Position numbers and translations under genes: made by a program
Notes under the pieces: generated by a model
What the model saw: only the letters and a program-made list of their open reading frames with translations
The model's database searches: none
Told to the model about the DNA's origin: nothing
In this document: positions 6,551 through 47,700 of the stretch, one piece after another
How positions within the stretch are numbered: position 1 is the stretch's first letter
How the letters are laid out: each line of letters begins with the position of its first letter
From: Dromaius novaehollandiae
Lineage: Eukaryota; Chordata; Aves; Casuariiformes; Dromaiidae
Reading direction: 5' to 3'
Length of the DNA stretch: 64,000 bases
Assembly: GCF_036370855.1 (NCBI RefSeq)
Contig: NC_088117.1
Span: 2,418,001-2,482,000, forward strand

Positions 6551-11900
<5,350 letters not shown>

Positions 11901-20970: not shown

Positions 20971-21204
20971 CAGCTCAGAAGGGTGAGGTGGTATTTATTG
21001 ATCTAATTAATGTACCTGTCCTATTGCAGAGCCTTCTGGCGCTCCACTCTCACAAGGAAGAATTTTTTTACATGCAAGTGGAGTTCCCTTTGCTGCCACT
21101 TGTGCTCATTGCCTCTTTTGCTGTGCACCCCTGAGAGAGGCCCGGGTCCCTCTGCTCTGTAACCCCTCTGGCTAGCAGAAGACTGAAGTTAGACCCCACC
21201 GTTT

Positions 21205-21285
21205 GCCTCCCGTTCTCCAGGAAGGACAAACCCAGCTCCCTCAGCCTTTCCTCCGCACTCCGCCCCTGGACCCTCTCTGCCGAGC
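21205..21285 (-). mobile_element. Possible CR1 3'-end fragment just upstream of the Rieske gene promoter
   Basis: The plus-strand text CTCCAGGAAGGACAAACCCA, followed by GCTCCCTCAGCCTTTCCTC, resembles the antisense of a well-known CR1 3' segment (ctccagactgaacaa...ctccctcagcctttcctc). The match is short, with unclear ends. If right, it lies about 120 bases upstream of the TATA-like box. Confidence 0.4.
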
Positions 21286-21403
21286 ACCCCAGCTCGCTGG
21301 CCTCCCCCTTGCACCGAGGATGCCCAGGACGGATGCCCCTGGGCCGGGGCCCGGGGCGCGGCACCGCGGCGGGGGCGGAGCGGGGCGGCGGGGCCGGCCG
21401 GGC

Positions 21404-21410
21404 TATAAGG
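21404..21410 (+). promoter_or_regulatory. TATA-like box
   Basis: TATAAGG stands out as the only AT-rich word in a very GC-rich background. If it works as a TATA box, transcription would begin about 30 bases downstream, near 21434. That almost coincides with the first in-frame ATG at 21438 and favours the next one at 21507 as the true start. Confidence 0.5.
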
Positions 21411-21437
21411 GCGCGGGGCGGCGGGGCCGGGCGGGCC

Positions 21438-21762
21438 ATGAGCGGCGGGCGGTGGCGGTGGCGCGGAGCGGCGCTGCTGGCGGCTGCGGCGGCGGCGGCG
21501 GGGCTGATGCGCGGGGCGCTGCCCGCCGCCGCGCTGCTCTTCCTCCTCCTCCTCCTCCTCCTCCTCCTCCTGGTGCTGCTGGCGTGCGCCCGGCCGCTGG
21601 CGCTGCGGCGCGGCCCGGGGCAGGTGGGCTGCCTGCCGGCGCCTGGGCTGCGCCGCGCCCGCCGCCCCGGCGCCGTCCCGCCGCCCTACCCCAACGGCTG
21701 GTACCGCCTGCTCGACTCCCCGCAGCTGCCCCGCGGCGCCGTCCGCAGCCTCGCCCTGCTCG
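21438..21762 (+). CDS. nvd: Neverland-type oxygenase exon 1: membrane anchor and N-terminal region
   Basis: Encodes residues 1-108 and the first base of codon 109. A basic stretch, RWRWRG, and an alanine-rich run lead into a hydrophobic segment made almost wholly of leucine (about residues 33-49), encoded by a CTC repeat at 21538-21571. This suits an N-terminal membrane anchor, as in Neverland and DAF-36. After RPLALRR the conserved family segment begins (PNGWYRLLDSPQL). The donor is CTCG|GTGAGT. The start is uncertain: ATG at 21438 gives 424 residues, and the in-frame ATG at 21507 (Met24) gives 401 with the anchor right at the N-terminus. Confidence 0.88.
21538..21571 (+). repeat. CTC trinucleotide repeat coding for poly-leucine
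   Basis: About ten CTC codons in a row inside exon 1 form the core of the membrane anchor. Slippage here would lengthen or shorten the anchor without a frameshift. Confidence 0.9.
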
Positions 21763-21769
21763 GTGAGTG

Positions 21770-22130
21770 CCCCCGCCCGGGCTCCCCCCCGGCACCGCCG
21801 GGTCCCCGCCCGGGCTCCCCCCCGGGGCACCGAGGGCATCTTGCACCGGGCTCCCCGCCGGGACATCCCGGCCCGGACTCCCTGCCGGGGCACCGGTGGC
21901 GTCGCGACTCGAGCTCCTTGCCGGGGTACCGGGGCATCCCCGCCCGGGGTCCCCCAGGGGCTTCCCTGCCCAGGCTTTTCCCTGAGGCATGGGGGCATCA
22001 CTGCCCAGATTCCCTGCTGGCCTACAGGGCATCTCGCTGCCTGGGCTCCCTGCCAGGGTATCAGGGCATCGTCCCTCAAGGTCCCCACCAGGGTACAGGG
22101 CGTCTCACTGTCTGGGCTCTCCTGGGCACA
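21770..22130 (+). repeat. Degenerate minisatellite, about 35 bp unit, at the start of intron 1
   Basis: Around 10-11 imperfect copies follow the pattern GGCTCCCTGCCNGGGTACC then NGGGCATC and a short C-rich spacer. Copy starts can be followed at roughly 21778, 21811, 21847, 21874, 21910 and 21945, and then into more diverged copies to about 22130. CpG density falls from left to right, as expected if the right-hand copies have lost CpG by methylation decay while the left-hand ones are protected by the island. It begins only a few bases after the exon 1 donor. Confidence 0.8.
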
Positions 22131-22160
22131 GTTGCTGCCCACAGCTCCCCCATGTCCTGT

Positions 22161-22176
22161 GGGGGGGGGGGGGGGG
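22161..22176 (+). repeat. Run of 16 guanines
   Basis: Sixteen consecutive G residues lie in intron 1 just after the minisatellite. This is the second such run in the window and is likely unstable in length. Confidence 0.9.
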
Positions 22177-22179
22177 TCA

Positions 22180-25101
22180 GGCTGCTTCGGAGGGGTCTTG
22201 GGCTTGTCCAGGGTCCTGCAGTCTTGGCAATGAGCTGGGCTTGTGTAAGTGCCTTACTCCTCAGCAGGGTTGTTTCTGGGTTAAAAGCCCTCTGATTCAG
22301 CGGTGACCCTTCACTACTACGGAGTGGTGTTTCCTGGGTGTGTTTTCAAAATCCGTCCTCTCCTGTCAAGTTTTTTTCATCTAATGGGAACAATTCATTT
22401 CGATATTTGTGTCCTGGAGAGCCACCGCCAGTCTGTCTGTTACCCTAGAACTTTCTTGGTTGTCTGCCCAAAGCCTGGTTTCTGGGACTCAGTTCTCTGG
22501 ATCTGACTAAAATGTGCTGGTAAAAAACACTTGTAGTCACAGAATGACAATGCAGACCGCAGAGCTTGCAGGCAGTGTTTTCCTCTTATAGGAGTCAACA
22601 CCTGCAGTCCTAAAACCGTGTACGGTGCCCAGGGACAGGTGAGTGCACAGGGCTGGGGCCTTTCCTAGCATGGCACAGCTTATCGTTCACAAAGTAAGGC
22701 ATGAGGTGGCCTAGGGGAATCTCAGGCTTTGGCGTGAACATCCATTAAACAAGGATAGTGACTGCACTAAGTTCTTGCTCCCTAAGCTACTAGGTTAACA
22801 GACCTCCCTGAACAACCCTCGTCTCGAATCAATACTTGTTGGCGTTTGGGAATCTTGCCTTGTGAAGATAAGCCTTCATGGTGTGTTTCTGTAGTCTGGC
22901 CATACTTGAATCAAAAAGTTGTACCTATACTTCCCTTCTGTGATGCATCCTGAGAGCCTCGGCCTGTGAACATCCAGATTCAGCACCTTTTCAGAGATGG
23001 CTCTAGCTGCCTGTGTGTCAGGGCTTCCTCTCATGCAAAGTGGGGTAGGGCCAAGGGAGGCATGTGGTGTCCTGTCCTGTTGTGCCCTGGTACGGAAGGG
23101 GGACAGAGCTGGCCTGGGAACTCAGAAGCACACTGGGGTCTGTTCATACAGATGTGGCCACTGAGAGCAGGTCTAGGTTTGCTTTCAGGCCAGGTCGCTG
23201 ATGAACAACCGCTGTCCTCTTTGAGGCCTCTGCACTACGTGCATGCTGGCAGGGATTTCAGTATTGCAGCCCTCGCAGGTGTGCTGCTGTCTCAGAACAG
23301 CTTCTGCTGGTGCCAGGAAAGCACTTGGCATGTATTCAGTCCCTCCAGGTAGAGTGTTTATTTAGACAGTACTGTGGCATGCAACGTAGTGATAGCTAAC
23401 TTGCACAGCTGGGCAAAGAGCAGTGCCATGAACAGACCTACGGCTATTGTGCAAGTACTCGCTGTCTCTCCGTAAGTCAAAGCAAACATTTTAATAGTTT
23501 CTTGCTCAGCTAACACGGTGCTACCCTGCGGGTGGGGACGAAGAGAGAGATCCCAGAACTGAACACTGACAAATTCTGGCAGGGCAAATCTCATATTGCT
23601 TCAGCAAGCACAAGCAATCAGACCCAACCATAGAGAAAAGACAGGCTGAGTGCCAGAGCAGTACAGTCCAGCCCAGCCATGTCAGCTCCAGCTCTCTCCT
23701 TTCATTCCCTGCATGGAGCAGAACAGTCCAGTGCCTCCTTCTGCTAAACTAGAGAACTTCCATTTGCTACAAAGTTGTCAGTGTTTTGGTTCATAGTCCT
23801 TGGCCATTTCTCCCCAAGGGATGGGATTCTCTGTCAAGCTGCAATGCAGACTGCTCTTGGAGTTCAAAAGCACACCGTGGCACATAAAAGAGGGTACTCC
23901 TTTCTGCTAATGTTACCAAAACTCCCCAAAATGTGTAAGTCCATAGTGTCTCCTCTAGATGCCCCTCACCAAATGTGGCCCATGACAGAAGCCTCACTTC
24001 TCGGGTGAAGGGGTGAGAATGGGCTTCTCTTCAAACGCAGCGGGCTGTGCTCTGCTCTGTGTGCAGCCCGCCTTTAGCAGAGGAACAGTGTAAATCTTTA
24101 AACATTTGTGTGGCAACACCTATTATGCCAGAGCTGAAACAGGCTCCAAGAGCTTGCACACCAGGGCTGAGGGTTACGGCCACAAGATTTTAGAGGTGAG
24201 TGGGCAAAACTGTGCTGCCCACTGCCCGGAGAAAGGAAATGGCCTCAGCACAGATGAGTTTCTGCTCTCCAGCAGCCTCCCTGGGAAGCGGGGTGGCTAC
24301 CCAGCTCTGCGGTGTGCTGACATGCTGCAGGAACCTCTGGCATGAAGGGCCCATGGCATGACCGATCGCTGCAATGGGATGTGTTTTAAACGAGTACCGT
24401 GAATCGATGGCCACCAAACGCAAAGCCTTTGCTGCAGCATCTGCCGCGGCCCAGCAGGGACTCTCTGCCATCAGCAAATACCTCCTGCCTCCAATCTGCT
24501 TGGAAAGAACCTCCTGTCTGGGAATGTCTCCCCAGACCCTGCACGGTGTCTTTTCTCATACTCAACTCTGGGCACTAGCAGGCTGGCTCTGGCAGCAGCC
24601 TAGTGCCATCTCGTGGCTGAACAACTTATCTAGAATAAGCCTATTTCTGTCCTGCAGCTGTCCTTCCTCTAGAAACCTCTAATAATAACTTTTAACAGTG
24701 TATTTCCCCCCAGGATCCAGGATACTTCTGGATATCTTTGCACAGGCAGATGCATGCAAAATAGTAGAACAGTTTGTTAAACTCGCCTGTCAGGCTGCTG
24801 TCGGCTGATTGCACAGTCTTTTTGCAAATTGTCGTACTAAGATATCAGCTGGGTTTGGGTCTGCTGATGACCCAAGGCAGCACAGCTAGGGAAATCCAAC
24901 AGAACTGGAACTACTAGGATAAAAAAAGAAAAAATATATATTATTTCTTCTTCTGGGAACTTTTGCATGGCCCTGCTCTTACTTGTCTCTGCTGCCTGTT
25001 CGGAAGAGTCTGAGCAATATGTGTCTTACCTGACTGCCTCATGTGGGAATGTTGTTTTCACAGATGATCTTACAACCTCATATTTCTGCCTTAACGTTCA
25101 G
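22180..25101 (+). other. nvd: Remainder of Neverland intron 1
   Basis: Intronic DNA between the minisatellite and exon 2. Exon 1 joins exon 2 directly to give [12 protein letters not shown], so no further coding exon is needed here. The only element I single out is a CTCF-like motif at 24601. Confidence 0.8.
24601..24619 (-). promoter_or_regulatory. Candidate CTCF binding motif
   Basis: The minus strand reads CAGCCACGAGATGGCACTA. Its core CCACGAGATGGCAC differs from the CTCF core CCASYAGRKGGCA at one position. It lies 480 bases upstream of exon 2, between the GRIN1 and ZNF618 promoters. Motif only; occupancy is unknown. Confidence 0.4.
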
Positions 25102-25290
25102 GAGAACAGCTTGTCGCATTTCGCACCCAGGATGGACAGGCGTATGTGGTCGACGCTTACTGCCCTCACCTTGGTGCTAATCTTGCTATGGGTGGTCGTG
25201 TCATTGGCAATTGCATCGAATGTCCATTTCATGGATGGCAGTTTCGAGGAGAAGATGGAAAATGCACCAGTATCCCATATGCTGAAAAAG
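25102..25290 (+). CDS. nvd: Neverland-type oxygenase exon 2: Rieske [2Fe-2S] domain
   Basis: Encodes residues 109-171 and one base of codon 172. It carries the full Rieske signature. [17 protein letters not shown] supplies Cys129 and His131, and [19 protein letters not shown] supplies Cys149 and His152 (C-x-H, 17 residues, C-x2-H). The segment [10 protein letters not shown] is diagnostic of the Neverland/DAF-36 branch. The acceptor follows a pyrimidine-rich tract (GTTCAG|GAGAAC) and the donor is AAAAG|GTGAAC. The spliced codon 109 reads GGA, which restores the family sequence [10 protein letters not shown]. Other frames here are open but meaningless. Confidence 0.96.
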
Positions 25291-27555
25291 GTGAACCCTC
25301 CCCAAATCTGCAGAAAGCATCCACAGTAATGGCCGTGCCCAGTATGTCCTCACAAAAAGCTACTCTACTATGGAAATGTAGTTTTTATAGTAACTCACCC
25401 TCCCTACTCTTCCCCTATTTCATGCAGTGCCCTAACTCCCCTCTTGAGTTGCCTGTGTCCTTGTGTACTTTCCAGTGCACTTTCATATGTTAGGTGATAA
25501 CTAGGACTTTAATCTGGTTAAATAACTACCCTTTTCAATGTTGATAGCCCTGCAATTCCTGTATTTAGCAAGCAGTGTATCATCAAAAGAACATTTTTAA
25601 CTCTGAATTATGTATTTCACCACAAGCCATGGAAACAAAAAGCATCTGAGTGATGGATCCTGAGGAACTATTGGGTTTCAGAATTTATTCTGTACTCTGC
25701 AGTAATAGTCCATACGTGTCAGTGCTTGAATCTGTCACCTTAACATGACAGAACAGTCTCTAAATGGCAATTTTTTTCTCCTTTTTAGGTTTAAAGAAGT
25801 TTTTTAGTTAGAATCTAGGAAAGCTCTTCAAACACACCTACCTTTTGAATGCACTCTGCATTGTGTAGGAAGAATATCTTACATAAAGTTCATATGTAAG
25901 AATTACTTTATCTTGTTTCCTTAATCAATTTAAAGCACCAATTTGAAATGCAGCTGAAATCAGCAAGCAGATTTAAAATACTTTGAATTTTGCTTTGGCT
26001 TGTGCTTCTTAAATATTTTCCTAAAGAAGTTCAACTTTCCGTGATTGGGATAGCAATGAAAATATCAATTAGCAGCAAAACTCAGTCTTTCTGCCAAACA
26101 GACCATTTTTCTCAAAGCAGAAGAAACATTTTATCCATATGTGATAATATGAGCAATTTATAGATCTCACCAAGCAACAATTCCTATTTTTTTATTTTGT
26201 CAAAAAAGATTAATACTGTATTTTTTCTGTTCATATTCACTCAGGAGCTGCGTTTGAATGAAAATTTGATTCCAAGTAATGAGCAAAGAGTGTTTCATTA
26301 TAAAATGACAAAGAATATTCCAGTCATAGGCAAACGCTTGCCAAAATGCATTGTTCTGCTTGAAACGGCTTTATTAAAAGACATGGTTATCTGCTGTTAT
26401 TAAGAGTGCAAAACTGCAAACAGCTGCCCTGCTCCCGTTCCAGCCCAAATGGGTCAGGTTGATTTAAACAGATTAAAAAGCCATCTGTGTTCATGCAGGT
26501 CACTTTGGGAGCGAGCTACGTCAGCGCACTGGGATGGGCAGCCCTGCTGCCAGGCCTGGGGGCAGCCCCGGGCACCGGCGTTACCTGCCGCGGGTGCCAG
26601 CCCGTGCCTCGGGCGTGGCAGGGTGCGGAGAGGGGCAGTGTCTGCGGTCCAAAATGCTGAGGGTGCCCGGGGCCGGCAGAGGCAGCACTGGGCTTTCAGG
26701 AGGCCTCCAGCCAGGCAGGAGGGTCACAGAGCCTAATATGGCACTGGATGTCAGCAAGCAAACAAAGCCCTCTTTAAAAGCGATGAATCCCCCCTGCCAC
26801 GATCACCAGATTTTCAGTTAGAAATAGTAGCGGCGATCTCCTGCCTCATTTGGTATTCGCGGATTGAAAAAGAAACATAAGCTCTCCTGTTATTTCACCT
26901 CCCAAGTGATTTTATAATTCTGAATAATAAGGAAGCACTAGTCTCTCTGTGCTTGCTTGCAAATTGAGAAAAAAAAGAAGTAATTAAGGCAAAAGATTTC
27001 CATCCAGTAAGAAGCTAAGTGTTCTGACACTTTGGTAAATGTAAATAGGAAAATACATTTCACTGGAAAAGTTGCAGATATATTCTTAAAGGAACAGATG
27101 ATACTATAATATTAAAACAGAGAATGACTTGAACTCATGAGTTAAAGACAGCTTTTACTGTCAATATACCTATAACTAAAAACATTGCCTTTTAACTTAC
27201 GAAGCTTGAGGAGGGTTCATTGATGCAGAATGTGTTTGCTTATTTGAATGGTTTTAAGAGTAGTAGAAGTAGCCTATAGAGAAAATAGCCATACTTTCAG
27301 CTTATTCCTTAGAAGACTTATTCAAAATACTAAATTGAAATAAAACTGATGCAAGGGAACAATCTTCTATGAGCCTCAGGCTCATATGCTGAGCATCAGT
27401 ATGCTGAAAGGTTACAAACTCCCCTAGAGAGCCTGTGTCACATTAATATCACCCGTACAGATGAGCTCTTAGCTGCAGTTCAGGACAAGGTGATGTTTAA
27501 CCAGTGTCAGCTTGGGAAACACCTCTTTTAACCAATGGCTTGCTTTCTTCTGCAG
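25291..27555 (+). other. nvd: Neverland intron 2
   Basis: Mostly AT-rich intronic sequence, with a local GC- and CpG-rich patch at about 26500-26740. I found no exon signature in that patch, and exon 2 joins exon 3 in phase without it. Confidence 0.8.
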
Positions 27556-27734
27556 TGCCAGATTTTGCAAAGGTTCGGACCTGGCCCTCCTGTGAAGTGA
27601 ACGGGATGCTGCTGGTCTGGTATCACTGTGATGGGGTCAGTCCGACATGGGCTGTCCCCGAGCAGCAGGAGATCACCACGAAAGAGTGGGTGTTTCGTGG
27701 GCAAACAGAGCATTTCATCAATGCCCACATCCAG
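27556..27734 (+). CDS. nvd: Neverland-type oxygenase exon 3: start of catalytic domain
   Basis: Encodes residues 172-231. It begins [17 protein letters not shown] and continues LLVWYHCDG, typical of the part after the Rieske domain where W and R residues are conserved, and ends [14 protein letters not shown]. The acceptor is CTTCTGCAG|TGCCAG and the donor CCAG|GTAGGG, phase 0. The first two bases complete codon 172 as GTG (Val). Confidence 0.96.
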
Positions 27735-29185
27735 GTAGGGGAGCTTGGCAGGGTCTGGTGCCTCCGTGTGTGACTTGGACACTGAGAAATGATGTCCTAG
27801 GCAAGGTGCAAGAGGGCTCAGCTGTGATTCATGAGCCTGTGGTTTAGGGTAACTTGCACCTCTTTCCTTTTCCTTCTTAAAAACGTCTTCCACGGTTAAG
27901 CAGAGAGGATTTGGCAGCACCGTGGAGACATGTGGCCATGTCCATGTCTGGTGTCATCTTGTATAGCCCAATTCAGGCACAACTCTACCAGTTACCCGGT
28001 GCTCTGGCTGTGCCCAGTGCCACCAGGTAGTCCCAGTACTGCCAGCAGAGTTTAGAGAGAGAATTATGTCACTGTGATACATACAGAGAATACAGCGTAT
28101 GTTCTCCAAACACAGAACACGTACTTCTTGAATAAAGAACAGATGTTCTGTGTATTTAAAGTGAATTTGTCAATTTACTTTGACTTAAAATTGATTTAAT
28201 TTTTTAAAAAAAAGATTCTCTAAGAATTGCAGTCAGGAGGCTTTTCAACTGAATAATAGGCGTGGAAGATCATGATTATTTTGCTGTTAATCTTCATAAT
28301 CATCATTATATGCTAGCAAATGTGCCACGTAGAGCTACCCTTCTCCAAAAGGCCTATTGCTTCCATTGGCTCTCAGTGAAAATGGGGCTGGAAATGTGAA
28401 AATGTTTTTTTGCTGTACCTGGTCTGCTTGCTAAACCACTGTAAAGGTAGGTGGATTAGAAAGAAGTGAAGAAGGTGCAAGAGACATAGGAGATATAGCT
28501 TTGGGATTGAGCAGAAGTGTGAGAAGTGGGGAGAGCAGGAGAGACTGATAGGATAGTAAAAGTTATTTCAGTGCAAACCATCATGCACATCATGGCTTCC
28601 ATTCTGGGGCCATTCTCTGCTGCTTGCCAAGATGGTAAGAGACTGGCATATTTGAGTAAAGAAAGCAGTTAAAACTTCTTAAGAAGTGACATAATGGGGG
28701 CAGGCTGGTGTGGTTGAAAGGTTCCAGCTGGTTTAAAAATATGTGAAAGCCAATCTAGGAGCACAATCACAGACGTGCTTTATTCCTTACAACGCTATTG
28801 TTACAGGGCCAGATATAAGGACTTGTTTGAGTACCCTGCTTCTGTGATTGCAAATGTTAACATGGTTAGATTACTTTGAGCTTAAAATCAACCCTGAATT
28901 TTCTGTTACACACGTTTAAATTATTCTCATGCACTAGTTAAAAAACTGGTCCCAAGTCAGTGTGTGCTAAGAGGCCCCTTCCTTCACTCACTTGCCTGCT
29001 TCATCCTCTTGCTACGTCTTGTACCTGAGAGCATCTGTGCTGTGGTTGGAGCAATGTGCCCTGATCTGTATTGCAATAACACTATCTGATGTTATTGCAA
29101 TACCGTTATTAAATATGTCAGAAAATATAGGCAGCTTGTATCCAAGTCAGCTATCAGACAACTGCAAATTGTTCCCCAATGGCAG
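27735..29185 (+). other. nvd: Neverland intron 3
   Basis: AT-rich intron with no exon needed between HIQ and EIPENAAD. It contains the perfect inverted repeat at 29068-29103. Confidence 0.8.
29068..29103. repeat. Perfect 14 bp inverted repeat with an 8 bp loop
   Basis: The arm GTATTGCAATAACA (29068-29081) and its exact reverse complement (29090-29103) flank CTATCTGA. Each arm contains ATTGCAAT, a C/EBP-like palindrome. It lies 82 bases upstream of the exon 4 acceptor, so in RNA it would form a hairpin near the 3' splice site. Confidence 0.9.
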
Positions 29186-29311
29186 GAAATCCCTGAGAAT
29201 GCAGCTGACACAGCTCATCTGACTTTTCTCCATGGACCAGCTATTCTGAGTGGAACTGATCTGAGATATACAAGGTCCAAGCTGTGGGATTTTATGAAGC
29301 ATATCTGGAAG
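29186..29311 (+). CDS. nvd: Neverland-type oxygenase exon 4: mononuclear iron motif
   Basis: Encodes residues 232-273 and carries the catalytic iron motif of Rieske oxygenases. [19 protein letters not shown] gives Asp239, His242 and His247 in the D-x2-H-x4-H spacing. The rest, [20 protein letters not shown], is the conserved follow-on. The acceptor is CCCCAATGGCAG|GAAATC with a weak pyrimidine tract, and the donor is GGAAG|GTAAAA. Both ends are phase 0. A stop in another frame (HLTFLH overlaps CATCTGACTTT) cuts the longer open frames, which makes this exon easy to miss. Confidence 0.95.
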
Positions 29312-29630
29312 GTAAAAGAATTACTATGACTCCCCTATTAGCTGGAAGTCTTCCAAGCCAGGTCTCCTTTCTGCTTCAAAGCTTTCCATGAGTCCTGCCT
29401 CATCCCCTCTGTCGCATCCCCTGCTTTTCAGAGCAAGCCTCTTTTTCCTGTCTGTGAGACTTTTAGCTGCACTCTCTGGTCTGTGCTTGTCTCTACATGG
29501 TCTTCACAGCCAGCTGCTTCTACCAGTGTTTTGGTGTTGCCTCTTTTGTGATCTGCAAAGGTCACACTGCCTTAGTTTGTACTACTGTTGTCTTGGGTCT
29601 TGGGACTGAGTCATTTCTCCATCCCTTCAG

Positions 29631-29750
29631 GCTGAATGGCAGCCAGAGCCAGAGCCAAACAAGCACTGCTCCCAGTTGCTGGTTAAACACCGTGCAACCG
29701 TGTTTGGGAAACATTTCTCCTTGCTGGATTTGACTGTTTCTGCCAGACAG
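29631..29750 (+). CDS. nvd: Neverland-type oxygenase exon 5
   Basis: Encodes residues 274-313. It reads [18 protein letters not shown] and ends [16 protein letters not shown]. This matches the family's segment after the iron motif, where a WxP...H start leads to a conserved FGK...LLDLxVxARQ end. The acceptor is CATCCCTTCAG|GCTGAA and the donor GACAG|GTATGT, phase 0 at both ends. The exon is 120 bases and the intron before it is only 319 bases. Confidence 0.94.
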
Positions 29751-31087
29751 GTATGTGACATGCTCCGTCAAGCACCTTGCGTAGATACAAGGAAAGCAGA
29801 TGGTTCAGTGATCCATAGACAAGGGTGCCTGGCCTCACTTGGCATTTAATCTTTATTGGTAACCTTTAATTACCTGTGACTGTGTTTCATACTCATAAAA
29901 AGATTCATTGCTGCTTTGGCAAATCAGGCCCATGGAGACTGCTCCTGAAGATGCAAGGTGCAAAATTTGCCACAAACAAAACAAAAAAAAAACTGTCATG
30001 AAGTAAGAAAGACTTTCTGTTTCCACTTGTGGAGAGAATCCAGACCCCGGGACATTATGGTGCCTGGAAGAGCACCAATATGCCAATATTCTCAATGGCT
30101 AATCAGGACCCTGCAGCGATGCAAAGGACCAGTGTGCAGGGAAATACAACAGAGCTGTTTTTCCCGGCAATGGCTGCAATACAAGTGCCCTGCTCACAGC
30201 AGTGCAGCAGGGGCTGGAGCTGCTGCAGCTGCAGGCATGAGGCAGAGGTAGTCAGCAGCACCTTTTGGCTTCTGCTCCTTGCACCAGCCTTGGCTGGCCC
30301 CCTCATTTCAAATAGTGAGGATTACTACTTTTAACAGTCTCTGTGGCTGGTGAAACGTGGTCAGTCCTCAGCATCAAACGCAGAAAGGTAACTTATGAAG
30401 AGCTCAAGGGCAGGACGCAGTCCTAATCATATATTCCTCTGTGTTCAGTGTTGAGTACAAGCTGCATGATTGGAATTATGGGAATTCCTACGTCGTGTGT
30501 AACCCAGGAGGTCAGACTAGTTTGTTGCTGTGATCCTTTCTGGCCTTACCCAGGAACCCTGCACACTAAAAGCTCTAACCGGGGGGGTCTTGCAGTTCGT
30601 CTTGGAAAAACATTCCCTGAGTATCCTGTTGCGTTGCTGGGAAGTTTGGTGTGCACGCTAAGCTTGTGTGACAGCCTCAGTGGGTGGAGGCTCAGGCAGG
30701 GTGGCAAGAGCCTCATGCTAATGCCTCGATCTGGAGGCTTTGCTCTGGGAAAGTGTCCTGTCCTGGGTCTCTGTCCCAGTCCTACCTAGAGCAGTCAATG
30801 GCTGCATAAACAGGATGCGCTGGGCAGAATAGAGGTGTTCACCCACTGCCCTTCTGTGCCACAGCTGTGTTCAGTCTTTGAGGAGCAGAGAAAAGGCTCT
30901 AGGAGGTACTCCTGTTGCCCTTGCTCCTGATAGTAATCCCACCTAAGCAAGAACTTGGTGAGGCAGATAGTCCCTCTGTGTAGCCCATATCCTGACATCT
31001 TAAGCAGGTCTCAAGCTGTGGGAGCTGCTGTACCAGAGATCTGGAGCACTGGAGAATATTTCGTAAGGGTGCTCTGTCATTCTGCAG

Positions 31088-31264
31088 GTGGGGCCAGGAC
31101 TGGTTTTCCTGATTTTTGAGCATGCTTTCCTGGGCCGTGGGATCATCCTGCAGACTGTGACTCCCGTGGAGCCTCTCCTGCAGAATGTTGTCCACAAAAT
31201 CTACTACCAGAAGAACATGCCACCCATAATCCCCAAGTTCATCCTGAAAGCAGAGTGCATACAG
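31088..31264 (+). CDS. nvd: Neverland-type oxygenase exon 6
   Basis: Encodes residues 314-372. It begins [18 protein letters not shown], then [20 protein letters not shown], and ends [15 protein letters not shown]. The GPGxV...F...G.G.. pattern with TPVEP is typical of the C-terminal catalytic fold in this family. The acceptor is CATTCTGCAG|GTGGGG and the donor ACAG|GTAAGG, phase 0. Confidence 0.96.
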
Positions 31265-32754
31265 GTAAGGTTTCTGAAGAAGACCAGCTAAAGAAGGGCC
31301 ACTGGAGCTCAGCAGATAGAAGTCACTGAGGAGGAAGAGCAGCTGTCTGTCTGGGCTCAGATACATGCCAGAGCAAAACGCTGCGGGATAGATCCTTTCA
31401 CTGCTCAGCATGATCTCCTAGTTTTAGTAGCCCAAAGAATTAAACTGGAGCTCTTTGAAGCTGTTTCTCATGGAAAGAGGGTCCCTGCAGCATCTCATCT
31501 GTTAAAGATGGCAAAGAAAGAGGTGCTATCCCTCTCCTGTGCATGGACAACTGAAGCACAAGGCTCAAGCAACCTCTCCCAAACTGCAGGAAGTCTTTGA
31601 CAGACCTAATAATTGAATCTAGATTTCCTCCATCCCAAGCCAGTGCTTTAAGGACAGCCTCTCCCCTTTGGTAAGAACTATGCCAAGAAATCCTCCTCTT
31701 GTTAAACTGTCATAAGATTTGGCAACTCTTGCCCCTCCAAAAGAGTTTTTCTAGGTCCTTACTACAGAGAGTCACAGAATTGGCAGAAGGACCTTTCAGA
31801 AGTCTCCAGCCCAGTATCCCAGTTGGAGCAGGACTGTTGCCAAGGTCAGCTCAGACATGGGCTTGTTTAGCTTCAACTAAGAGCCTTGAAAATATCCTAC
31901 TTTGCAGAATGCTCCCCAGCTCTCTGGGTGACCTGTTCCATTATTGCCCTACACACCTTCTTAACTTTTTTTTCCCTAATGTCCATCTTGAACCTCCCAA
32001 CCTGCAGTCTGTGGTTGTTACTCCTTGTTATACCATCTGGCACTACCAAGAAGAATTTGATTCCATCATTTTTTAACTCCCTTTCAAGTAGTTGTAGGCT
32101 GCTGTCAGAATAGTTCATGCAATTCCCTTCCGATGTCACTGTTAAACCTTGGAAACTTTTTGGTCTGACCAGAGAGAGTTTCACTGGCACTACAGTGAAA
32201 ACTGCTGAAAGACAATTTTCAGCTGCCAAAAACCCACCCAAAATCAAACTTAGCTGTGCTAGCTCATATTGTAGAAATGCTGGCTTAATATTATGCATTC
32301 TTACTAAGGTGAATGAACAGCACTCATTTCGGCAGAGACTCCACAAAGGAAAACTCCACAGACTTTATAACATGTTTCTGAGTAGACTTCAAGATGTGGA
32401 TGCTTAATTTATAAACTCCTGGTTGGCTTTCACAAGAGAGTACCAGTGGAGATACCGCCTAATGATTCAAAATCTCAGGCGGAGCATCTTCGAACCTCAC
32501 AACTGTCTCTTGCAGCATTATCTATGATGGGGACATTGTCCAAGCTGGAAATGGCTTCTTCTTTGGCGCTGCAACATGGCAAACATGTCTGCTACCCACA
32601 GACAGAGACCTGTAGTGTTATCAGTTAAAAATAATATAAACAGTCCTACACTGGGCATTTGGGAGAAATGCTAAAAATAAACCTAGTGTGCAAGTTGCAT
32701 GCACAGGTTGGTTCAGCTTCCTCACCTGAATGTGACCCTCCTTCTTTCCTACAG
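31265..32754 (+). other. nvd: Neverland intron 6
   Basis: Intron holding an antisense CR1 LINE 3' end (31769-32112). No coding sequence is needed, since exon 6 joins exon 7 as ECIQ-FERDITIW. Confidence 0.85.
31769..32112 (-). mobile_element. CR1 LINE, truncated 3' end, antisense in Neverland intron 6
   Basis: The plus strand begins GAGTCACAGAATTGGCAGAA and keeps the order of landmarks of an antisense CR1 3' end: a ggacct segment, a CTCTCTGGGTGACCTGTTCC segment, a pyrimidine run with TCCCTAATGTCCATCTTGAA, then GGTTGTTACTCCTTGTTAT. Several substitutions suggest an old insertion. CR1 copies are typically 5'-truncated like this, which also supports a bird or reptile source. Confidence 0.88.
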
Positions 32755-32913
32755 TTTGAACGTGATATAACCATCTGGAATAACAAGCAGTATCTCCCTA
32801 AACCCCTCCTTGTAAAAGAAGACTCCACCATCCAAAAGCACAGACGCTGGTATGCTCAGTTCTACAGCGAGAAAAGCATGAAGTTCACCGTGCACGAGGG
32901 CCTGGACTGGTGA
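32755..32913 (+). CDS. nvd: Neverland-type oxygenase exon 7, C-terminus and stop
   Basis: Encodes residues 373-424 and ends with TGA at 32911-32913. It reads FERDITIWNNKQYLPKPLLV, then KEDSTIQKHRRWYAQFYSEK. The ERDxxIWNxKxYxxKPxL pattern followed by RRWYxQFYSE is the conserved C-terminus of Neverland/DAF-36 proteins. The acceptor is CTTTCCTACAG|TTTGAA after a good pyrimidine tract. Confidence 0.97.
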   Translation, partial: FERDITIWNNKQYLPKPLLVKEDSTIQKHRRWYAQFYSEKSMKFTVHEGLDW

Positions 32914-45019: not shown

Positions 45020-46533
45020 TTAAAGCATGTTGGACTTCAAAAACATGAGTTTGTTCATGTCTTCGGGACTGAGTAGCCGTCTCCTTTTGATTAAGAGAGC
45101 CTGCTCACACATATTTACACATTCACTTCTGGCACCAACAGCAGGCACTGCTAAGAGCCAAAAGGCTAGCTTGGCTAGTTTTGTATGCTTTTGGGTAACA
45201 CACGACCAGTACTGAAACAGGTCAGGGGTGGCCTGGAAGAGAGGTTCTTGCAAATAATCATAGACTTCATTTTTCCCAAACCAATCTTCTTCCTGAGCTG
45301 CTGTGGCTTCCCCTGCTGCCCGGGGTTTCTTGGTCGAAGGTTCAAATTCTGTTTCTTCTGCCCAGGACTCTTTGACCTCATTGATCAACTCACAGACCTT
45401 GCCAATGATCTCTTCGTGTTGGTATGGTGGGACGGGCCGCAGCTTCTGCTGGGGGTCTAAGATCATGGCTACCTTGTGTGCCGAATGAACTTTGAAGTTC
45501 TCCTTCAGCGCTTCCAAGAAGAGGTGGCAGAGTTTGCTGACTACGCCAGCATCATTAGCTTTGGAAGTGAACAGTTTCTCCAGTTTGACGTAGGTGGGCA
45601 GTACCAGCTGCAAGGTGGGCCGGCTCTCATTGCTCAATTCAATCACTGCCTGTTTCACCGGAGCCAAAATGGCTGCCAGGTTGCTGAGCAGGTGTTTGTT
45701 CAGGTTTTGGATGAGGTTCATCTTCTTGGCCCTGCTGTAAAACTCACAGATCTGCTCGTAGCGCTCGTGGACAAGCAGGAGGGAGTCGGTCACCGAGTTC
45801 CAGCAGGGTGGGGGAGAGGTCTCCTCCAGGGAGCCAAAGGTCTCCTTTGAGAGGCCCGTGGATCCCGCCAAATCTTCACAGACATTCAGGAGCTCGATTA
45901 CTTCATGCATGTTGCGAGCCTGTAGTGTTCGCTTATTCAGCACACTCTGCACTACCGAGTTCAAGGCACAGGCCGAGCAACGCAAGCACATGCCTGCCTT
46001 GGAGAACGCGGAGGAATTGACTTTGCAGTCTGTGACATACACCGTCCTGATCTCTGACATCACAAACTCCGAGAGCACATTCTGTACCCAGTGATGGATA
46101 AAATCACCGTTATCTCGAATGTCTACACCTTTAATTCCCAGGACGTAACTCTTGATGTGGTTGCCTTCCACCTGATAAGCTGTCAAGATGTAGCAAGAAT
46201 CGGGACCGATGCTCTGAGAGTGGCAAGTGACACCAATGCCAAGGCATGCATTGCTGCCCAGGGCGCAGGTGACTTTCACTTTCACTTGGTTGTACATCCG
46301 AGGCAAATGCTTCAGAGCCAGTGTGTTGAAATTGCCAAGGATTTCGGTGACTGAGAAGGCACCATAGCGAGCTCCACTATCCACCAGAGTCTGTGCTAGC
46401 TTGATGAATTCTTTCCCACTCACCACACTCAGAGCCCCAAGGTCAGTGCACATCACCCTCAGGAGCCTCTCGGCAATGTTCTGCCGCTCCTTCTCTGGGA
46501 TCGCGCTGTTCCCTACCGAACCACTCGCAGATG
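45020..46533 (-). CDS. ZNF618: ZNF618 terminal coding exon: domesticated hAT-transposase domain
   Basis: Encodes the last 503 residues, nearly identical in wording to the mammalian protein as I recall it. It starts SASGSVGNSAIPEKERQN, continues ERLLRVMCTDLGALSVVSG, and ends DMNKLMFLKSNML with TAA at 45020-45022. The fold is that of hAT transposases. An RNase H-like core includes VYVTDCKVNSSAFSKAG then LRCSACALNSVVQ, where active elements have an acidic residue in a VTDNA-like motif. The C-terminal dimerisation region includes PDLFQYWSCVTQKHTKLAKL. ZNF618 is reported to bind UHRF2 and aid 5-hydroxymethylcytosine reading. The acceptor is TATTTCACTGCAG|CATCTG; its first two bases complete a Thr codon from the exon before. 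Confidence 0.97.
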
Positions 46534-47700
46534 CTGCAGTGAAATACAAGGAGGGAGAGAAAGCACCAGATCAGAATTGCTCCTCTGCAACACAAGCAGG
46601 GAGGAAATCACAAAACGATTCTGAGAGAGACCCCAGCAGGTCCAACATCCCACACCACCCAGCAAGTGGAACATGCCCAGATGATGGAAGAGGCGATTCC
46701 AACCTGGATTTCTTTCCCAAAGTGTTTCTAGGCAGAGGCACTTCCAGGGACAGGTCTTGTCCTTGCTTAGAGCAGCAAGGAGCTTATTTGCATGCTTTCC
46801 CTGATGTGGGAACTGAAACAGAGTACACATCATCTACTTGGAATTCAGTGCCTCACCAGCAACATCTTTGTGTTGTTCATTTAGGAACTGCCTAGGTAAG
46901 CTATAATCGTGTGCTGTTTGCTAATCATGTCTACGGCGGTCACAGCTCTACCCATGTGGTTAGCTCAGCTGGAAGGCTGAACTTCTTCCTGCTTTTTGTA
47001 AGTTAGGCCTTGCCTTTGAGCCAGTTCTTTTAGGAGGAGTTGCTTCAGTGAAAATTCCAGCTTCTTCCACCACTTTACACGGTGTTGAAGCACAACTTTC
47101 AAATTCTTCCTCCGATGACCAGTGATCTCACTTTTTGTCACTGATTCTGGGCTAAATGATTGTCACTTTTGGCCACATCAGAACACACAAACACCATGTT
47201 TTCTTATCACCCTTCTCCCCAGTTGCTTAGCTCAAGAACCTAGGAACTGCTTTCACATGGGGCTCTATTTTAACATTAGCTGTGTTGAAGCACAAGTTCA
47301 CAGGAGCAGTTGAGGATAATGCCACACATTGGCTGCCTGCCAGCCCATGAAGCGACAGGTTATGCCTACATCACACAGAGCCAAATGGAGTAATTTCTTA
47401 ACTCCAGACTGCGAAACCTGACCTTAAATCAGAAGTTGGCTTTAGCCAGGAGTTCCCAAATAGATCTCCTGTACAAACCTTTTCCTACTGGCTCCCTGGG
47501 ATTCCCAATACTTTTTGCATACCAGCGCATCTGTAAGGGGAATGGGTGCTCTGCTTTGCAGGGTACCACACGCATTACAGATGAAATCAAGTGCAGTCAG
47601 GTGAAGACACTGGCCTTGTACAATGCCTGAGTCACTGCTGCACACCATCTCTGGAAAAGTCACTGCTTCAAAGCTGATAGGAGCAAACAGCATTACGTAC
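46534..47700 (-). other. ZNF618: ZNF618 intron before the terminal exon
   Basis: Flanked by a GTACGT donor and a GCAG acceptor in matching phase 1. No further feature seen. Confidence 0.85.

Follow-up and report, generated by a model that had tools for sequence, protein, structure and literature searches.

Neverland of insects and DAF-36 of C. elegans are cholesterol 7,8-desaturases whose product feeds into ecdysteroids or dafachronic acids. To our knowledge, vertebrates make neither of these. Compared by description, the two enzymes have the same Rieske motif and non-heme iron domain as the protein studied here. The oxygenase component of bacterial 3-ketosteroid 9alpha-hydroxylase, KshA (PDB 4qdc and 2zyl), also has Rieske and KshA_C domains in common with this protein; it hydroxylates ketosteroids in steroid breakdown, a role that differs from the one proposed below. 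In the accessible part of PMC4064121, KshA is said to cluster with Neverland.

Neverland in vertebrates is already known. The accessible text of a 2011 review places nvd orthologues in ascidian, zebrafish and chicken and not in mammals, and that of PMC4967820 (2016) gives orthologues in 'vertebrates, except mammals'. PMC7609953 (2020) lists, in its accessible part, the Gallus gallus protein XP_425346.2, with Yoshiyama et al. 2006 as its source, together with proteins of Anolis, Podarcis, Pseudonaja, Xenopus and zebrafish; it is also a source on the Ciona and sea urchin genes. The surprise at a vertebrate Neverland that was implied by an earlier, sequence-only reading of this DNA is therefore not supported, since proteins from chicken, Xenopus, zebrafish and reptiles have already been published. 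The gene described here is most likely the same gene as that of chicken, the counterpart expected in a relative that is likewise a non-mammalian vertebrate and has the same family; the two are likened by listing, not by sequence. Among the literature titles retrieved, with few subscription journals within reach, none on a tested function in a vertebrate animal was found. The gene is thus not newly discovered in vertebrates here, and what is left to ask is its function there, so far poorly known.

The window, which is the whole 64-kb stretch of DNA that was analyzed, corresponds to C20:2418001-2482000 of a 1.468-Gb genome. Splicing and translation of seven exons between 21438 and 32913 gave a single frame of 424 residues with one terminal stop at 32911-32913 (Table 1). 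All six introns have a GT donor and an AG acceptor, and the outgoing exon phases are 1, 1, 0, 0, 0 and 0. The seven phase-consistent exons encoding 424 residues that had been proposed from the letters are confirmed by these borders and by the one open frame. The acceptor borders of exons 2 and 5 could shift by 1 and 4 residues, respectively, because alternative AG acceptors (25105 and 29643) also preserve the open frame, giving 419 to 423 residues. The start codon may differ as well. A TATAAG sequence (21404-21409) precedes the ATG chosen here (21438) by no more than 34 bases, and for this reason the true start may be the next in-frame ATG, at 21507 (residue 24); a start at that position retains the membrane segment.

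Table 1. Features of the gene in the window
Feature	Position	Strand	Remarks
CpG island over the 5' end of the gene	21201..22000	.	GC 0.76-0.84; CpG observed/expected 0.65-0.96, four 200-base windows
Exon 1	21438..21762	+	N-terminus, hydrophobic membrane segment (residues ~31-51), PPPYPNGWY motif
Exon 2	25102..25290	+	Rieske [2Fe-2S] ligands Cys129, His131, Cys149, His152
Exon 3	27556..27734	+	End of Rieske domain, start of catalytic domain
Exon 4	29186..29311	+	Bridging Asp239, iron ligands His242 and His247
Exon 5	29631..29750	+	Catalytic domain; in-frame alternative acceptor 29643
Exon 6	31088..31264	+	Catalytic domain
Exon 7	32755..32913	+	Third iron ligand Asp376 (codon 32764-32766), stop
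Possible poly(A) signal ATTAAA	34218..34223	+	Pattern match only

An N-terminal membrane segment is a feature of Neverland and DAF-36, and the protein encoded in the window has a predicted one. It is a strongly hydrophobic stretch, with a best 19-residue hydropathy of 3.49 compared with a maximum of 1.53 from residue 61 on. The poly-Leu stretch of exon 1 is partly encoded by a CTC repeat (21537-21571). Downstream of the stop, four ATTAAA-type matches were found within 3.1 kb, the first of which is the one in Table 1. No RNA families or tRNAs were found within the 64-kb window at the thresholds used, and a scan of positions 21300-21500 for promoters and terminators of bacterial type, with models ill-suited to vertebrate DNA, returned nothing.

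Pfam analysis of the spliced protein revealed a Rieske domain at residues 88-175 (E=6.6e-22; 77.7 bits against a cut-off of 20.3) and a KshA_C domain at residues 192-409, spanning exons 3-7 (E=5.3e-33; 115.3 bits against a cut-off of 23.3). A sequence search of the PDB gave KshA oxygenases as the best relatives (E=5.1e-41), with 34 distinct sequences at E<=0.01. Judged by these scores, the Rieske, KshA_C and PDB matches are not due to chance. The best NCBIfam match, to 4beta-methylsterol monooxygenase, reached 47.5 bits, far under its 600-bit cut-off.

In Rieske oxygenases, an aspartate bridges the Rieske cluster and the mononuclear iron; the title of a phthalate dioxygenase study names a bridging residue of this kind. 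The iron ligands of KshA are given as His181, His186 and Asp304 in the accessible text of PMC4064121. Upon alignment with 2zyl, the first and second His of the motif fall on His242 and His247, and Asp304 falls on Asp376 in exon 7, so that a 2-His-1-carboxylate set is present in the KshA_C-type domain. Because the KshA ligands align with these three residues, Asp239 is assigned by alignment to the bridging aspartate, that is, to the electron bridge and not to the iron ligands. The Rieske motif of Neverland, defined in the accessible text of the 2011 review as C-X-H-X16-17-C-X2-H, is found here as C129-X-H131-X17-C149-X2-H152. Cys129, His131, Cys149, His152, Asp239, His242 and His247 are all located where the sequence-only reading had put them. 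Its D-x2-H-x4-H iron motif stands in part: the two histidines are ligands, Asp239 is the putative bridge, and the carboxylate ligand, Asp376, had not been listed.

Conservation was assessed in an alignment of 64 of the 80 bacterial relatives that were fetched. Asp239, His242 and His247 are kept in all 64, and Asp376 is kept in 63, with Glu in the remaining one. The four Rieske ligands also are kept in 64/64, a count that is partly built in because the frames were picked by a Rieske pattern and one scan peptide lies within the motif. Judged from the sequence, the active site looks complete: none of the eight metal and bridge residues is missing. The description of the gene as 'complete, apparently active' thus holds for completeness (an open frame and every ligand, Asp376 included); for activity, the ligands are the evidence.

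The relatives came from a scan of prokaryote genomes that returned 90, of which 80 were kept, and the tree accordingly holds bacterial rows and the window protein. The best relative by E-value is a Chitinophagales (Bacteroidota) protein from a metagenome-assembled genome (MAG) (L010:1944-3197), which combines Rieske and KshA_C domains with the PPPYPNGWY motif and an N-terminus that is hydrophobic. A tree built with 31 of the 80 relatives placed the window protein together with 12 bacterial rows at a support of 100/99: the Chitinophagales protein, three Nannocystis, five Gemmatimonadota, one Binatia, one Dadabacteria and one Acidimicrobiales. The remaining 19 rows comprise the other 10 of the 11 actinobacterial rows and the Luminiphilus group. 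The window protein is thus separated from all but one of the 11 actinobacterial rows, none of the rows being a proven KshA and long branches being flagged. Its exact place in the tree is unsure because the branches, its own included, are long and the composition of the Chitinophagales protein is odd.

In the rows inspected, the Chitinophagales, Nannocystis (L014, L015 and L017) and Gemmatimonadota proteins have the motif PPP[YF]P[ND]GWY and the same ligands as the window protein, and the bacterial Neverland-like proteins are ~33-35% identical to it over the best segment. Of the 14 relatives' genomes searched for squalene epoxidase, 5 gave a match, which in one case was weak (E=3.5e-6); both Nannocystis tested are among the 5, whereas none was found in the Chitinophagales genome. 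The two Nannocystis strains (L014 and L015) thus carry a Neverland-like gene and a squalene epoxidase in the same genome, and their enzyme may, for that reason, act on sterols that the cell itself makes. Sterol desaturases resembling Neverland may exist in bacteria. In two further MAG loci (L068 and L077), the Rieske part is 42% and 53% identical to that of the window protein, the C-terminal part is in another frame, and the middle part is unmatched or shorter; these may be shortened forms, genes that are broken, or the result of faulty assembly.

Across the genome, the KshA_C profile matched a single place, which is exon 7 of the window gene, and the VanA_C profile had no match in that genome. 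A protein search for a second copy in the 1.47-Gb genome, which scores the best candidates only (24 here), found none; the seven matches at E<=0.01 are the gene's own seven exons. The sterol-reductase family has 13 matches in the genome, on three contigs. The last exon of the match on contig C5 is presumably that of DHCR7, and with the DHCR7 family encoded, the reaction opposite to that of Neverland probably is available in this genome.

We favor, with a probability of roughly 0.8, the reading that the gene is a single-copy neverland/daf-36 orthologue and that its product is membrane anchored and converts cholesterol to 7-dehydrocholesterol, opposite to DHCR7. Domains, ligands, layout and literature agree with the earlier assignment to the Neverland/DAF-36 type of Rieske oxygenase in a vertebrate, and the likely function suggested by the sequence is that of a cholesterol 7,8-desaturase; we infer strict orthology, as we do membrane location, substrate, reaction and physiological role. 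The N-terminal hydrophobic helix would anchor the protein in a membrane, probably that of the ER. The Rieske cluster (C129/H131/C149/H152) would take electrons from a reductase, and these would pass via the bridging Asp239 to the mononuclear iron, whose ligands are His242, His247 and Asp376. The iron would activate O2, and the C7 and C8 hydrogens would be removed from cholesterol or a close sterol. The expected product is 7-dehydrocholesterol, made in the reverse direction of DHCR7. The unsure start codon counts against this reading, and so does a cell experiment: in the accessible text of PMC7425431, the zebrafish and Xenopus forms did not slow the growth of human melanoma cells, unlike the silkworm enzyme, and the measurements of 7-dehydrocholesterol are confined to the enzymes of silkworm and worm.

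A role in vitamin D supply is a reasonable idea, neither supported nor excluded by these data. In non-mammals, birds included, the enzyme might work against DHCR7 and in this way add to a local pool, either of provitamin D (skin, preen gland) or of a 7-dehydrosterol that serves as a hormone precursor; as a specific proposal, we regard this as doubtful. If it were true, loss of the gene would have left mammals with the restraint of DHCR7 as the sole way to keep the pool. The active-site assignment is now completed and the gene is confirmed to be intact, the search of this bird-like genome having shown no second copy; the job of vertebrate Neverland can therefore be tested in an ordinary bird.

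The alternative that survives best keeps the protein in the Neverland family and gives it, in birds, another sterol or an oxysterol as the main substrate, such as a precursor of bile acids or steroid hormones, with 7-dehydrocholesterol not the main product. Vertebrates have no need of ecdysteroids or dafachronic acids, the searchable relatives include a 3-ketosteroid hydroxylase (KshA), and the absence of a growth effect of the vertebrate forms in melanoma cells (PMC7425431, accessible part) points the same way. The family is, however, named cholesterol 7-desaturase throughout the accessible text of PMC7425431, PMC4967820 and PMC7609953, and we consider a different main substrate rather unlikely. 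Decay of the gene in birds, with the frame still open and expression or constraint gone, would parallel the loss of the family in mammals (PMC4967820 and the 2011 review, as far as accessible). The absence of any stop or frameshift, the six clean introns, the CpG island at the 5' end and the retention of every ligand residue make it highly improbable next to a cholesterol 7,8-desaturase.

Rieske domains do occur elsewhere in the genome and the relatives from the protein scan are bacterial, but bacterial contamination or a bacterial insert is ruled out by the six introns and by GRIN1 in the same window, and a different Rieske protein of vertebrates (AIFM3 or UQCRFS1, for example) is ruled out by the KshA_C match, which is confined to the window gene, with the UQCRFS1-like and AIFM3-like matches sitting on contigs other than the window's. 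GRIN1, the gene for NMDA receptor subunit 1, has its first coding exon on the minus strand, from 8267 down to ~8007 (86 residues compared; E=3.5e-46), and this match shows a vertebrate context. A CGGCT repeat (8354-8431) adjoins the exon. Elsewhere in the window, an open frame of 516 residues on the minus strand (45023-46570) has a hAT dimerization domain (E=3.1e-6); we take it to resemble ZNF618 and perhaps to be the final exon of a host gene similar to ZNF618.

The Rieske profile had 10 matches in the genome at E<=1, among which we recognize, besides the window gene, what we take to be UQCRFS1 and two AIFM3-like loci. The best PDB chain for the UQCRFS1 frame is 3cwb_E, presumably from a chicken structure, with 421 bits; the next best chain scored 383 bits. 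On these scores the host looks like a bird or a near relative of birds. Two weak Rieske-profile matches lie on contigs C33 and C35 (L006 and L007) in stretches of 3120 bases that are identical base for base, which may reflect recent duplication, repetitive DNA or a stretch duplicated in the assembly.
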